NCBI RefSeq assembly: GCF_000764665.1
Contig: NZ_JRGM01000015.1
Span: 1 to 64,000 of the forward strand
DNA: 64,000 nt
Source: Aeromonas lacus
GTDB lineage: Bacteria; Pseudomonadota; Gammaproteobacteria; Enterobacterales; Aeromonadaceae
Direction: 5' to 3'
The translations under genes and the position numbers were made by a program. The notes beneath the pieces are model-generated. The model made no database searches. It saw nothing but the letters and a program-made list of their open reading frames with translations, and was not told where the DNA came from. Positions 47,049-54,607 of the stretch are shown here, piece after piece; position 1 is the first letter of the stretch; each line of letters opens with the position of its first letter.

Positions 47049-49598
47049 TCAGCTGGAACGAGCCTGCAAAAACATGTTCTTGTCGTTGAGCTGCAAGTAT
47101 TCGGTGAGATCGTCGTAGGCGAGCGGACGGCTGAGCAGATAACCCTGAGTAAAGGCACACCCCTTCTGGCAGAGGAAGTTGAGCTGCTCGCGAGTCTCCA
47201 CCCCTTCTATAACCACCTGCATCCCGAGGTTGTGCACTATGTTGATGATGCCGTCGAGCAGCATGCGATCCTGCTCGTTGAAGGGGATATGGCGCACGAA
47301 AGATCGGTCGATCTTGACCAGATCGACCGGGAATGTGCGCAGATAGTTAAGCGCCGAGTAGCCGGTGCCGAAGTCATCGATGGCCAGCTTGCAACCCGCC
47401 TCGCGCAGGGCATCGATCCGCACCCTGTGCTGATCGCTGCTCTCCATCAGCAGAGATTCGGTAATTTCGATGACGATGTCGGCAGGATCGAGCTCAAAAT
47501 GGTGGATCACCTTGAGCCATTCGCTCGCTTCCGGATCTATGGTCTGGAACTCCATGGTGGAGCGATTGATCGACATCTGCAGATCAGGAAAACCGGAGCG
47601 CTGCAAACGCGCCAGATCCCGACACGACTGCCACAGCACCAATGAACCCAGCCCCTGGATCAGCCCCGCCTCTTCCGCCAGTGGGATGAACTCGGCCGGT
47701 GAAACCTGTCCCCACTGGGGGTGATACCAGCGCACCAGCGCCTCCAGCTTGGCCACCCGCCCGCTGCGGTTGTCCCAGATGGGCTGGTAGGCCATGGTCA
47801 GCTGTTCCTGCTTGATCGCCTCCGCCAGATCCTGCTGCATCTGATGGCGCTGGCGCACCTCTTCCCGCATGGTGGAGCAGTAGGTGCCGATCAGTCGCCC
47901 CTGCCGTTTGGCGGCAAACAGCGCCTGCTCGGCGTTGCGCAGCAGCTCGTCGCTCTCGCTGCCATCGATGGGGCAGAGGGTCATCCCCACAGTCGCCGTC
48001 ACGTAGAGGTGCTGATTCGCCAGCATGAAGGGACGGGCGAAGCTGCCGATCACCTGCTTGGCAAACACCTCTGCCTGACGGCGGGTCACTATGCCCGGCA
48101 CCAGAAAGGCGAACTCGTCGCCACCGATGCGGGCCACCAGATCCTCGGTGCGCACCCGGCTCACCAACCGATCCGACACCTCCCGCAACAAGGCATCACC
48201 GGCATGGTGATCCATGCTGTTGTTGACCGCCTTGAAGTTGTTGAGGTCGAGTACCATCAGGGCGAAGCGTTCGCCCCGCTCGCAGAAACGGCCGAGACAG
48301 CGACCAAACAGCCAGCGGTTGGGCAGGCTGGTGAGGTTGTCGTAGTTGGCCTGTGCCGCGATCTTCTGTTCGGCGAGCTTAGTCTGGGAAAGATCGCTGA
48401 AAATGGCGATATATTGCTGGATCTTTCCCCCTTCTCGCAGGGTGCTGATCATCAGCTGCTGCGGGTAGAGCTTGCCGTTCTTGCGCTTGTTCCACACCTC
48501 GCCGCGCCACACCCCCACCCGCTCCAGCGCGTGGTACATGTCGGCATAGAAGGTCTGATCGTGCAGGCCGGACTTGAGGATGCTGGGGCGCTGGCCACAC
48601 ACCTCCTCGCTGCTGTAGCCGGTGATCTGCTCGAACGCCGGGTTGACCGAGATGATGCGGCTGTCGTCATCACACACCAGGATCGCCTCGGAGAGGTTGT
48701 CATAGACCCGGTGGGATAGCTTGAGCTGTTCGGCGTGGCGCTTGAGGGGATCGATATTCTCCAGCAGCACCATCAGATAATCCGGCTGCTGCAGAGCATC
48801 GCGAATAAGGGTCACCGTCACCCGCCCCCACAGCACTTCCCCGCCCTTGCAGAAGTAGCGCTTCTCCTGGGTGAAGCTGCTGCGCTCGCCACGATAGATC
48901 TGCTCATAGTATTCGGCACTGCGCATCCAGTCTTCGGGATGATTGATGTCGGAGATGGTGCGATGGAGCAACTCATCGAGCGGGTATCCCAGCATCTTCT
49001 CGATGGCCGGATTGGCCCAGAGGATTCGCCCGGCAAGGTCCAGCTTGCCGATCCCGACCGGCGCATGGGAGAGCATGCTCTGCAGCATATGGGGCGAATC
49101 GGGCAGCGGTTGCTGCGCTCGCTGCAGCAGGAGGGCCAGCTCGCGACCGGCCAACGGCCCCAGCAGCTTGAGCAACCCCATCACCTTACCCATGTTGGCC
49201 TGCGGCTGGCGATAGAGCAGGCTGCAGATGCCGATGGGCTCGCCATCGGCGTTCTTGAGCACGATGCCGGCATAGGCCTGAGGCTGCCACTCCTGTGCGA
49301 GGGGCACATGGGGGAAGAGCTGGAGCAGACGGTCGCTGAACCAGGCTTCTCCCTCATGCCAGGTGATGGCATCGGGCGAGCCGGTTAGCGGCAGTTGCAG
49401 GGATTCGGGTTCAAGACAGGAGGGATAAGCGGCCTGCGCCCTGAATTGGGCAGCGTTTGGTTCCCATGCTGTGATCAGGACGACATCAGCCATCACAACC
49501 GCGGCGATTTCACTCACAAAGGTATCGAAATATCCCTGACCACTCGAATGAGCCAGACTGGAGATGATTTGATAGACGGAATCGAGTGCTCGCCTCAT
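47049..49598 (-). CDS. GAF-PAS-PAS-GGDEF-EAL signalling protein
   Basis: About 849 residues. An N-terminal GAF-like domain (about 10-165) is followed by two PAS/PAC domains (about 175-300 and 300-425). The GGDEF domain (about 430-590) has the intact RIGGDEFAFLV, and the EAL domain (about 600-845) has LEALVRW, SINRSTM, EITESLL, DDFGTGYSA, KIDRSF and EGVET. Both catalytic signatures look active, so net activity could be c-di-GMP synthesis or breakdown. No transmembrane helix is seen. The start is the ATG giving MRRALDSVYQ; a longer frame starts at 49679. It lies between rsmJ and prlC, beside the binding-protein gene, which is a plausible sensory partner. Confidence 0.88.
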   Translation of the reverse strand: MRRALDSVYQIISSLAHSSGQGYFDTFVSEIAAVVMADVVLITAWEPNAAQFRAQAAYPSCLEPESLQLPLTGSPDAITWHEGEAWFSDRLLQLFPHVPLAQEWQPQAYAGIVLKNADGEPIGICSLLYRQPQANMGKVMGLLKLLGPLAGRELALLLQRAQQPLPDSPHMLQSMLSHAPVGIGKLDLAGRILWANPAIEKMLGYPLDELLHRTISDINHPEDWMRSAEYYEQIYRGERSSFTQEKRYFCKGGEVLWGRVTVTLIRDALQQPDYLMVLLENIDPLKRHAEQLKLSHRVYDNLSEAILVCDDDSRIISVNPAFEQITGYSSEEVCGQRPSILKSGLHDQTFYADMYHALERVGVWRGEVWNKRKNGKLYPQQLMISTLREGGKIQQYIAIFSDLSQTKLAEQKIAAQANYDNLTSLPNRWLFGRCLGRFCERGERFALMVLDLNNFKAVNNSMDHHAGDALLREVSDRLVSRVRTEDLVARIGGDEFAFLVPGIVTRRQAEVFAKQVIGSFARPFMLANQHLYVTATVGMTLCPIDGSESDELLRNAEQALFAAKRQGRLIGTYCSTMREEVRQRHQMQQDLAEAIKQEQLTMAYQPIWDNRSGRVAKLEALVRWYHPQWGQVSPAEFIPLAEEAGLIQGLGSLVLWQSCRDLARLQRSGFPDLQMSINRSTMEFQTIDPEASEWLKVIHHFELDPADIVIEITESLLMESSDQHRVRIDALREAGCKLAIDDFGTGYSALNYLRTFPVDLVKIDRSFVRHIPFNEQDRMLLDGIINIVHNLGMQVVIEGVETREQLNFLCQKGCAFTQGYLLSRPLAYDDLTEYLQLNDKNMFLQARSS

Positions 49599-49698
49599 GG
49601 CAAGGGGCTTTCTCTCCTTGAAGATGTAGAACACGACTCTACTTAAGAGGCGCGGGCAGTGCAAACATGCATTCAGCAAGATATTAAAAAGGCATGAG

Positions 49699-51847: not shown

Positions 51848-52249
51848 CCCGGTTACCTCTTGTTTGGTCTTGAACAGACCGCTTTAGCAGCTCTTCATGG
51901 TTCTCTAACATGTGGCCAAGTCACGCAATAATCAAGCTTCAATCCGCCTGTCGGCACGGTTTTCCCCTCTTTGTGAGCTCAAACACCTCTCTGCCAGACA
52001 CTGGACGGCAACAGCATGAATAATCGGTACTTTTTTGCTCTTTTTACGGCTTTTTCAACTCTCGAACAACAAGGGAGCAGACCAAATCCAATCGACAAAG
52101 GAGTACGTCACAACAGACTATCACCGGCCTTTTCCATACTTGGAAAATAATTAATCAATAAGTTAATAACTAAAACAAATCATGTACATACGTTGATTAA
52201 TTTGTTTTTAAGTGCATATCATAAGCAGCCTGTTACTCAGGTCACTTGA
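51848..52249. promoter_or_regulatory. Intergenic region with AT-rich promoter for chitinase
   Basis: About 400 bp between divergent prlC and the chitinase riboswitch. The stretch 52145-52215 is very AT-rich (TTAATCAATAAGTTAATAAC and following) and is the likely promoter area. No single -10/-35 pair can be chosen with confidence. No ORF is seen. Confidence 0.45.
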
Positions 52250-52270
52250 TTCTCCGTGCCGCACGGAGAA
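52250..52270 (+). other. Hairpin immediately before the riboswitch
   Basis: The perfect 9-bp stem TTCTCCGTG/CACGGAGAA with a CCG loop abuts the aptamer. It may help aptamer folding or be a protein-binding dyad. Confidence 0.5.
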
Positions 52271-52357
52271 CGGGTGAAAAAGGCAAAGTGACCCGAAAGG
52301 GCACGACGCAAAGCCACCGGTCTAAGGGAGATTTCCTATGACAGCGGGGCTGCCCCC
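52271..52357 (+). promoter_or_regulatory. Cyclic di-GMP-I (GEMM) riboswitch aptamer
   Basis: Conserved GEMM-I elements occur in order. GGCAAA (52282-52287) precedes a GTGACCC-GAAA-GGGCAC hairpin with the GNRA loop (52288-52304). GACGCAAAGCC (52305-52315), CCGG (52317-52320), CTAA and ATGACAGCGGGGCTGCC (52338-52354) follow. This is a full match to the c-di-GMP-I consensus. The aptamer lies 55 bp upstream of the chitinase ATG, in the 5' untranslated region. Confidence 0.93.
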
Positions 52358-52358
52358 A

Positions 52359-52391
52359 GGAGCGTTCGGCCATAGCTGTACGCTCCGTTTG
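52359..52391 (+). promoter_or_regulatory. Probable riboswitch expression platform hairpin
   Basis: GGAGCGT (52359-52365) pairs with ACGCTCC (52380-52386), followed by GTTTGT. It could be a weak intrinsic terminator or a structure controlling access to the GGAG ribosome site at about 52400. The direction of control cannot be settled by eye. Confidence 0.5.
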
Positions 52392-52411
52392 TACTGTATG
52401 GAGATATCAAG

Positions 52412-54607
52412 ATGAACAAATTGAAGTTATCCCTGCTGGGCTGTCTGCTCGGCATGGGCGCCCCCATGGCGCAGGCCGCCTCGGCCGGTCAGGCCATGGT
52501 CAATCCCCAATCCGGAGTCGTCGTGGGTTACTGGCACAACTGGTGCGGTGGCTCTGGCTATCAGGGCGGTACCGCTCCCTGCGTCAAGCTCGACCAGGTC
52601 AATCCGCAATACAACGTGGTCGATGTCTCCTTCATGAAGGTGTATGGCAGCGATCCCATCCCCACCTTCAAGCTCGACCCGGCTACCGGCATGAGCGAGA
52701 GCCAGTTTATCGAGCAAATTGCCCTGCTGAACAGCCAAGGCCGCTCCGTGCTGCTGGCGCTGGGCGGTGCCGATGCCCATATCGAGCTGCGTACCGGTCA
52801 GGAGCAGGCCTTCGCCGACGAGATCATCCGTCTGGTGGAGACCTATGGCTTCGACGGTCTGGATATCGATCTGGAGCAGTCCGCCATCACTGCCGCCAAC
52901 AACCAGACCGTGATCCCGGCTGCCCTGCGGCTGGTCAAGGACCACTACCGCGCGCAGGGGAAAAACTTCCTCATCACCATGGCGCCTGAGTTCCCCTACC
53001 TGACCGCCAGCGGTCTCTATACCCCCTATCTGCGGGCACTGGAAGGCTACTACGACTGGATCAATCCCCAGTTCTACAACCAGGGTGGCGACGGCATCTG
53101 GATCGACGGGGTAGGCTGGATCGCCCAGAACAACGATGCCCTGAAAGAGGAGTTCATCTACTACATGGCGGACTCTCTCATCAACGGCAGCCGCGGCTAC
53201 TACAAGATCCCCCACGACAAGCTGGTATTCGGTATCCCGGCCAATATCGATGCGGCCGCCACCGGTTACGTCAAGAATCCGCAGGATCTCTTCGACGCCT
53301 TCAACCGCCTCAAGAGTCAGGGTCAGCCCCTGCGCGGCGTGATGACCTGGTCCATCAACTGGGACATGGGTCGCAACGCGGCCGGTCAGGCTTACAACGA
53401 AGCCTTCATCAAGAGCTACGGCCCCTTCATCCACGATCAGAACATCACCCCGCCGGACGAGAACGGCAAGCCGGTGTTCAGTGGCCTGAGCGATGCCCGC
53501 GTCAAGCACGGCACCCGCTTTGACCCGCTGGCCGGCGTCAGCGCCAGTGACAAGGAAGATGGCGATCTGACCGGTCAGATCCAGGTGGAAGGGAGCGTCG
53601 ATACCCAGCGCATCGGCCTCTATCCCCTCACCTACAAGGTGAGCGACAGCGACAACCAGACCACCGAGCAGATTCGCACCGTCGAGGTCTACAGCATGAA
53701 GCCGGTCTTTACCGGTATTGCGGACACCACTATCGAGCTCGGTACGCCGTTCAACGCCATGGCCGGCGTCAGCGCCCACGATGAGGAAGATGGCGATCTG
53801 ACCGCCAACATTCAGGTCAGCGGCAACGTCGACAGCAGCAAGGTAGGCCGCTACACCCTCACCTATCAGGTGAGCGACAGTGCCAACCAGCAGGTAACCC
53901 AGCTGCGCAACGTGACCGTCAGGGAGCAGGGCGCCATCTGTCAGAACAGCTGGGATGCCAAAAAGACCTACGTCGGCGGCGACATCGTCAGCCACAACGG
54001 CAAGAGCTGGCGCGCCGAGTGGTGGACCCAGAACGACGAGCCGGGTACGACCGGTGAGTGGGGCGTCTGGCGTCTGCAGGGAGACAGCGACTGCGATGGT
54101 GGCGAGAAGCCGCCGGTGATCGGCAGCAGCGACTTCACCGTCAGCGCCATGGGTTCCGACTACACCATTGTCAACGGTCAGGTCACCATCCGCTTCAACA
54201 TCACCACCGCCAACCCGGTGCAGATCTCTGCAACTCTGGAGCAGAACGGCCGCAGCCATGGCACCAACAGCAGCAAGGTGAACGGCACCAGCCCTCTGGT
54301 ACTGCAGGGTAGCAATGTGACCGATGGCAGCTACGAAGTCGTGATCAGCGGTCTGGCAGATGGCCAGCAGCCGGTGGTGCAGCGCTTCCCGGTCACCCTG
54401 GCTGAAGAAAGCGACAACGGCGGCAACGATGGTGACTACCCGGCCTACGCCCCCAACACCAGCTATCAGGCCGGTGATCGGGTCAGCAATGCCGGTGGCA
54501 ACTATGAGTGCAAACCCTGGCCCTACAGCGGCTGGTGTGGCGGCTCCAGCAGCCACTATGCACCGGGTACCGGCACTGCCTGGAGCGATGCCTGGACCAA
54601 GTTGTAA
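52412..54607 (+). CDS. Secreted GH18 chitinase with two chitin-binding modules
   Basis: A 731-residue secreted enzyme. The signal peptide ends at about residue 22 (APMAQA). The GH18 catalytic domain (about 34-345) has DGLDIDLEQ at 148-156, with catalytic Glu155. Two Ig-like/DUF5011-type repeats follow (about 355-430 and 432-510; both contain the paired EDGDLT block). A CBM5/12 module (about 515-565, SWDAKKTYVGGD, WWTQNDEPG), another beta domain and a C-terminal CBM5/12 (about 680-731) complete it. It depolymerises chitin outside the cell. It is monocistronic, under a c-di-GMP riboswitch and followed by a strong terminator. Confidence 0.93.
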   Translation: MNKLKLSLLGCLLGMGAPMAQAASAGQAMVNPQSGVVVGYWHNWCGGSGYQGGTAPCVKLDQVNPQYNVVDVSFMKVYGSDPIPTFKLDPATGMSESQFIEQIALLNSQGRSVLLALGGADAHIELRTGQEQAFADEIIRLVETYGFDGLDIDLEQSAITAANNQTVIPAALRLVKDHYRAQGKNFLITMAPEFPYLTASGLYTPYLRALEGYYDWINPQFYNQGGDGIWIDGVGWIAQNNDALKEEFIYYMADSLINGSRGYYKIPHDKLVFGIPANIDAAATGYVKNPQDLFDAFNRLKSQGQPLRGVMTWSINWDMGRNAAGQAYNEAFIKSYGPFIHDQNITPPDENGKPVFSGLSDARVKHGTRFDPLAGVSASDKEDGDLTGQIQVEGSVDTQRIGLYPLTYKVSDSDNQTTEQIRTVEVYSMKPVFTGIADTTIELGTPFNAMAGVSAHDEEDGDLTANIQVSGNVDSSKVGRYTLTYQVSDSANQQVTQLRNVTVREQGAICQNSWDAKKTYVGGDIVSHNGKSWRAEWWTQNDEPGTTGEWGVWRLQGDSDCDGGEKPPVIGSSDFTVSAMGSDYTIVNGQVTIRFNITTANPVQISATLEQNGRSHGTNSSKVNGTSPLVLQGSNVTDGSYEVVISGLADGQQPVVQRFPVTLAEESDNGGNDGDYPAYAPNTSYQAGDRVSNAGGNYECKPWPYSGWCGGSSSHYAPGTGTAWSDAWTKL

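Follow-up and report, generated by a model that had tools for sequence, protein, structure and literature searches.

Background

The closest described relatives of the element studied here are two riboswitches of Vibrio cholerae, both of the c-di-GMP-I class. Vc2, at tfoX/tfoY, has the same class of aptamer in front of a different gene, and section 21 of PMC9262584 describes a switch that acts on translation, is OFF with ligand and depends decisively on the P1 helix. Vc1 precedes gbpA, the gene of a secreted chitin-binding protein; according to the part of PMC4744006 which deals with it, expression goes up with c-di-GMP, no anti-Shine-Dalgarno (anti-SD) sequence is apparent and the ON mechanism is unclear, whereas the leader described below has an anti-SD candidate and is predicted to be OFF. 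Vc1 is also the case that bears out the statement, made in the original prediction for our locus, that GEMM riboswitches are found at chitin-related genes in Vibrio. The Bc1 riboswitch of Bacillus thuringiensis is described in PMC11218506 as having a long platform with ligand-linked burial of the ribosome binding site and AUG, and two Rho-independent terminators, while we found none in our leader. Finally, the yjdF riboswitch is translational and uses a strand of the aptamer region to pair with the Shine-Dalgarno (SD) sequence in one state; its aptamer and ligand are unrelated, and its ligand switches translation on (PMC9142559).

In the genus Aeromonas, a sentence of a 2019 review (PMC6366702) places c-di-GMP-I riboswitches 5' of putative chitinase genes of A. 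hydrophila. This sentence concerns the same genus and the same kind of gene; it names no gene, platform or polarity, and it may mean another chitinase than ours, which is missing from 25 of 37 genomes. The association of this riboswitch class with Aeromonas chitinases is already known. What we add is a near-complete coverage of GH18 and LPMO genes in the searched genomes, new as far as our searches show (no genus-wide census of c-di-GMP-I at chitin genes is among the matches listed from the openly licensed literature), and a predicted 5' anti-SD platform, which may be new relative to the Vc2 platform.

Results

A c-di-GMP-I aptamer precedes a chitinase gene

We analysed a window of 64 kb of Aeromonas lacus DNA, by which we mean the whole stretch; its features are collected in Table 1. 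According to the original prediction, a chitinase gene here has a c-di-GMP-I (GEMM-I) riboswitch in its leader, and a search with the Rfam model was named as a check. This search confirmed it: RF01051 is the sole Rfam family above threshold across the window, and its match is full-length (model positions 1-87 of 87), with 74.2 bits (E 1e-12) for a gathering score of 35 bits. The 5' limit first proposed, 52250, falls within the 5' hairpin P0 and is not the edge of the aptamer. All 21 pairs of the model that this aptamer contains are standard, the P2 and P3 stems are there, and the Rfam alignment puts a GAAA tetraloop (GNRA) at 52295-52298. In Vc2 the ligand is contacted by G20, A47 and C92 (PMC11218506); our alignment places their equivalents at G52282, A52310 and C52353, in columns which are invariant in 16/16 aligned aptamers. 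The identity of the aptamer is near certain. Its putative P1 helix is short, with 3 bp only (GGG 52272-52274 with CCC 52355-52357), while several relatives have 4-5 bp; the outer two positions of the strands in Table 1 pair only in relatives.

Table 1. Features of the chitinase leader and gene, in window coordinates, followed by aptamer remnants in the loci of two other genomes
Feature	Position	Strand	Basis
Sigma-70-like promoter, TTGATT-N18-TATCAT	52193..52222	+	9/12 consensus positions
5' hairpin P0, directly before the aptamer	52242..52277	+	fold, pair list
Candidate anti-SD strand, in the 5' arm of P0	52245..52259	+	complementarity, shuffles
P1 5' strand (putative register)	52270..52274	+	P1 strings of each species
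c-di-GMP-I aptamer RF01051	52272..52357	+	Rfam, 74.2 bits
P1 3' strand (putative register)	52355..52359	+	P1 strings of each species
Post-aptamer hairpin GGAGCGU/ACGCUCC, no U-tract terminator	52359..52386	+	folding, pair list
SD region (GGAG 52400-52403)	52396..52411	+	complementary to 52245-52259
Chitinase ORF, 731 aa, ATG start	52412..54607	+	ORF call, Pfam domains
GH18 catalytic domain, aa 37-277	52520..53242	+	PF00704, E 1.5e-11
Better of two Ig-like stretches, aa 434-503	53711..53920	+	PF16403
CBM5/12 (CBM5_12) chitin-binding module, aa 514-553	53951..54070	+	PF02839
Remnant, L160	272-372
Remnant, L162	1118-1206	-
Remnant, L161	283-378

The chitinase ORF starts 54 nt after the end of the aptamer. 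Judged by its domains, the protein is a GH18 chitinase with a chitin-binding module: PF00704 scores 45 bits (cutoff 29.6) and PF02839 54 bits (cutoff 26.2). A signal peptide and the catalytic motif DGLDIDLE were read by eye. With the two Ig-like stretches, these features agree with the secreted multi-domain chitinase announced at first. The C-terminal part resembles GbpA, below the cutoff of the model (99.8 vs 481 bits).

A promoter of the sigma-70 type lies upstream. In an alignment read by eye, its -35 box reads TTGATT in 10/11 Aeromonas leaders and TTGCTT in L123, and its -10 box reads TA[TC]CAT in 11/11; it was not seen in the leader L082. The transcript would probably start near 52229. 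Since this conserved promoter lies 5' of it, the candidate anti-SD strand would be part of the transcript. We also observed, 2.7 kb from the chitinase start, a PAS-GGDEF-EAL protein of 876 aa (47049-49679, minus strand), a candidate c-di-GMP-metabolising enzyme.

The aptamer is conserved at the orthologues of this gene

A full-length relative of the chitinase is present in 12/37 Aeromonas genomes, and in 11 of these 12 RF01051 lies directly upstream of it, the exception being G020. The A. piscicola-type orthologue (L124 of G020; L010) retains the chitinase behind a leader in which no aptamer was detected.

We extended the survey to the best 80 of 110 chitinase relatives in a genome collection, seven Aeromonas loci being common to the two surveys. 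With a model, R1, built from 16 Aeromonas and Shewanella aptamers, several of which were themselves among its later matches, an aptamer was found 5' of the gene in 18 of these best 80 of 110 relatives: 7/8 from Aeromonas, one from an uncultured Aeromonadaceae (L082) and 10/14 from Shewanella. The Rfam model, applied to 18 of the 80, found an aptamer in 11. In the other 57 of the best 80, mostly from Vibrio, Photobacterium and relatives, R1 found 0 aptamers. The Shewanella leaders (L014, L018 and others) show, by eye, a P1 that is well formed (CACUUG:CAAGUG), and their SD is covered by a local helix, CUUUUC:GAAAAG, a platform unlike that of Aeromonas.

A 5' strand is complementary to the Shine-Dalgarno region

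Directly before the aptamer, the leader can fold into the hairpin P0, whose 16 bp form a lower stem of 7 bp and an upper stem of 9 bp, and whose 3' arm contains the 5' strand of P1. Across the leaders 83.9% of its 192 cells are paired; two pairs have changes on both sides, a number reached by 78/500 shuffles.

The 5' arm of P0 can also pair with the SD region, forming 15 bp with one bulge, at -20.0 kcal/mol, a value which was reached by 0/1000 dinucleotide shuffles of the 5' region of the window. This gene has 12 leaders in the comparison, closely related so that their p-values are not independent; the corresponding shuffle fractions range from 0.000 to 0.114, and when the test was run again 7/12 gave p <= 0.05. 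The controls of this second run comprised 20/30 LPMO, 20/37 chiA-like and 20/30 large-chitinase leaders from other genomes, the three such leaders of the window genome, and 6/10 Shewanella leaders; with start codons picked by rule, of which those of L192 and L210 at least look wrong, p <= 0.05 was reached by 2/21 LPMO, 2/21 chiA-like, 0/21 large-chitinase, 0/6 Shewanella and 0/1 sigma-54 leaders. As control leaders rarely reach this level, the anti-SD is specific to this leader and not an artefact of the method. A general 5' anti-SD across the other chitin leaders is not supported by the same counts (2/21, 2/21, 0/21).

The seven core pairs between 52253-52259 and 52396-52402 are standard throughout the 11 Aeromonas leaders (77/77 cells). 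In the more distant L082 these core pairs are missing in the same register; this leader has an 8-bp 5' anti-SD of its own (p 0.003). Over the whole helix 88.5% of 156 cells are paired, vs at most 57.1% when one strand is slid along the other. No pair of the helix is altered on both sides in the 12 leaders, and a swap test for co-evolution of anti-SD and SD gave no signal (means of -14.5 kcal/mol for own and -14.2 kcal/mol for swapped partners).

Predicted coupling of the anti-SD to the aptamer

Since the lower stem of P0 includes the P1 5' strand (52272-52274 in the window), P1 cannot form together with the full P0. Nor can the anti-SD:SD helix form together with the upper stem of P0. The two folds differ little in energy (-77.4 kcal/mol for the anti-SD fold vs -75.8 for the P0 fold, over 52228-52432), and the free minimum varies with the cut of the transcript: it is the P0 fold for 52228-52440 and the anti-SD fold for 52228-52432.

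We modelled the two states by folding with energy penalties, then with a P1 register leaving the ligand-contacting C free. Enforcing the aptamer and P1 lowers the predicted probability of an unpaired SD in the window to 0.00 at both temperatures (from 0.25 at 37 C, from 0.63 at 25 C), while the pairing of the SD with the 5' region rises from 0.71 to 0.99 and from 0.32 to 1.00, respectively. The aptamer constraint without P1 leaves the SD exposure of the window unchanged. At 37 C, pairing of the SD with the 5' region is equal to or higher than in the free state in 12/12 leaders once aptamer and P1 are enforced. The clearest predicted switches are L119 and L121, whose unpaired SD falls from 0.79 and 0.64 to 0.00; SD exposure is barely altered in L116, L117 and L123. 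Three leaders, L115, L122 and L125, are closed already without ligand (SD unpaired 0.07, 0.00 and 0.02), and no switching is predicted for L122 and L125. Shuffling the 5' region with P1 enforced, we found that 1 to 33 of 150 shuffles reached the observed SD pairing. With an alternative P1 register and a bonus of 10 kcal/mol, 200 shuffles of the 5' region left the SD, on average, about as exposed as without ligand; in six leaders, 6, 21, 7, 3, 4 and 15 of the 200 shuffles attained the bound value that we had observed. We concluded that these predictions lend moderate, not strong, support to a ligand-linked masking of the SD through P1.

The hairpin following the aptamer

The original prediction had assigned the expression platform to a hairpin 3' of the aptamer. 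Such a hairpin exists and is stable on folding; its role as the platform seems less likely, for it is compatible with both alternative folds of the leader, and a scan of 51850-52450 returned 0 terminator-like sites (shuffle mean 0.4). Because of these two facts, and because the 5' strand is the best placed to reach the ribosome binding site, we place the likelier platform on the 5' side of the aptamer. A downstream anti-SD, CUCCGU at 52383-52388 against AUGGAG (by eye), was set aside, being absent in several relatives, for instance L119, L121, L125 and L082.

Most GH18 and LPMO_10 genes of 37 Aeromonas genomes follow such an aptamer

The window genome (G000, 4.39 Mb) has five c-di-GMP-I aptamers, which precede this chitinase gene, a chiA-like GH18 gene, a large GH18 gene, an LPMO_10 gene and the gene of a sigma-54 activator. 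Its three GH18 matches and one LPMO_10 match thus have a riboswitch upstream in 4/4 cases; of its two GH19 matches, one lies downstream in the chiA-like cluster and the other on a riboswitch-free contig.

We searched the 37 Aeromonas genomes for a same-strand c-di-GMP-I aptamer at most 1600 nt upstream. One was found for 80/89 GH18 matches, three of which are marginal (28.8, 27.0 and 26.5 bits), and for 31/32 LPMO_10 matches; these counts are lower bounds, as the first-look candidates were scored in part (87 per genome). By our own arithmetic, at some four sites per genome, fewer than 1 in 1000 genes would have an aptamer within this distance by chance. The nine GH18 matches without aptamer are two in G006, two in G027, one in G011, the orthologue of our gene in G020, and the three marginal matches (in G004, G020 and G012); the sole LPMO_10 match without aptamer, in G035, is fragmentary and contains stops. 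No c-di-GMP-I above threshold was found in G006 and G027, nor any LPMO_10 match. Before 3/4 of their GH18 genes we found remnants with 26.0, 18.9 and 17.1 bits (with rough E-values), which look like riboswitch decay.

The GH18 and LPMO_10 genes account for 111/146 aptamers in the 37 genomes, these aptamer counts being lower bounds. The other 35 lie before sigma-54 activators (19), one family without Pfam match (9), an Ig-domain protein with weak peptidase similarity, encoded near the chiA-like gene (3), a UDP-GlcNAc 2-epimerase (2) and an unassigned protein (1), and one more lies at a contig end. The sigma-54 activator (L001 of G000 and 18 further loci) has a receiver domain by Pfam and may be a flagellar or a biofilm regulator. 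Nine aptamers (L126-L132, L135 and L145) precede one operon family, of which two ORFs, taken from L126, gave no Pfam match at 1e-3; this family may correspond to the "fimbrial" genes mentioned in the review PMC6366702. The aptamers of L157 and L159, with about 37-40 bits, lie some 300 nt 5' of the UDP-GlcNAc 2-epimerase gene.

Discussion

The reading we favour, with a probability of roughly 0.5, is that the riboswitch controls translation of the chitinase and that its 5' anti-SD turns the gene OFF at high c-di-GMP. Without c-di-GMP, P0 would sequester both the anti-SD strand and the 5' strand of P1, and ribosomes could bind. Binding of c-di-GMP would stabilise P1 at the expense of the lower P0 stem, with which it is incompatible; the hairpin would open and the freed anti-SD strand would pair with the SD region, so that the chitinase would no longer be translated. 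We predict the OFF polarity, which the original prediction had left open, by analogy with Vc2, because P1 is decisive in that translational OFF switch (PMC9262584). The original prediction also took the riboswitch to need no protein regulator; other regulation may act beside it.

The opposite polarity, in which c-di-GMP would activate the chitinase in the way that it activates gbpA, through a platform somewhere in the 54-nt post-aptamer stretch, appears rather unlikely to us, although it is the most serious competitor. The chitinase would then be expressed in the surface-attached, high c-di-GMP state. There is a precedent, Vc1-gbpA, described in PMC4744006 as an ON switch without obvious terminator or anti-SD, and the Aeromonas LPMO gene, a relative of gbpA, also has a c-di-GMP-I aptamer. 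The post-aptamer hairpin recurs in relatives with a different sequence, and the CUCCGU at its end could pair with the SD (both by eye). Against this, enforcing the aptamer and P1 cuts the exposure of the SD in the window and in its closest relatives, in predictions only.

The same hairpin could be thought to be a Rho-independent terminator, so that the switch would act on transcription. It is a stable GC-rich stem followed by GUUUGU, and one relative, L125, has UAUUUUUG; yet the terminator scan was empty and most relatives have a weak U-tract (by eye), and we hold this to be improbable. That the aptamer is a relic which no longer regulates anything has very little chance of being true: decay does occur in the genus, as the remnants of G006 and G027 and the loss in G020 before the orthologue of this gene indicate, but here the score is high, the contact residues are intact and the aptamer is kept in 11/12 orthologues. 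Nor do we give more credit to 3',3'-cGAMP as the ligand instead of c-di-GMP, since cGAMP-selective forms of the class carry an A at the position of Vc2 G20, which is a G here. The c-di-GMP-I class does include cGAMP-sensing forms such as pilM, and this position is a selectivity factor (PMC9262584).

Returning to the OFF switch through the 5' anti-SD, it would mean that this enzyme breaks the intuitive rule by which chitinase rises with the biofilm signal, and that different leaders may read the same c-di-GMP signal in opposite directions. A more tentative extension, which we rather doubt, is that the 5' anti-SD shuts this chitinase off while the leaders of the LPMO, chiA-like and large-chitinase genes, in which this strand is lacking, use other platforms, possibly with the opposite polarity; one messenger would then split adhesion from digestion. 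Finally, should the census prove right, most of the genes with which Aeromonas, a genus which lives on and off chitin, attacks this polymer by GH18 enzymes and LPMOs are under RNA-mediated control by c-di-GMP, and this control is wider than one gene.
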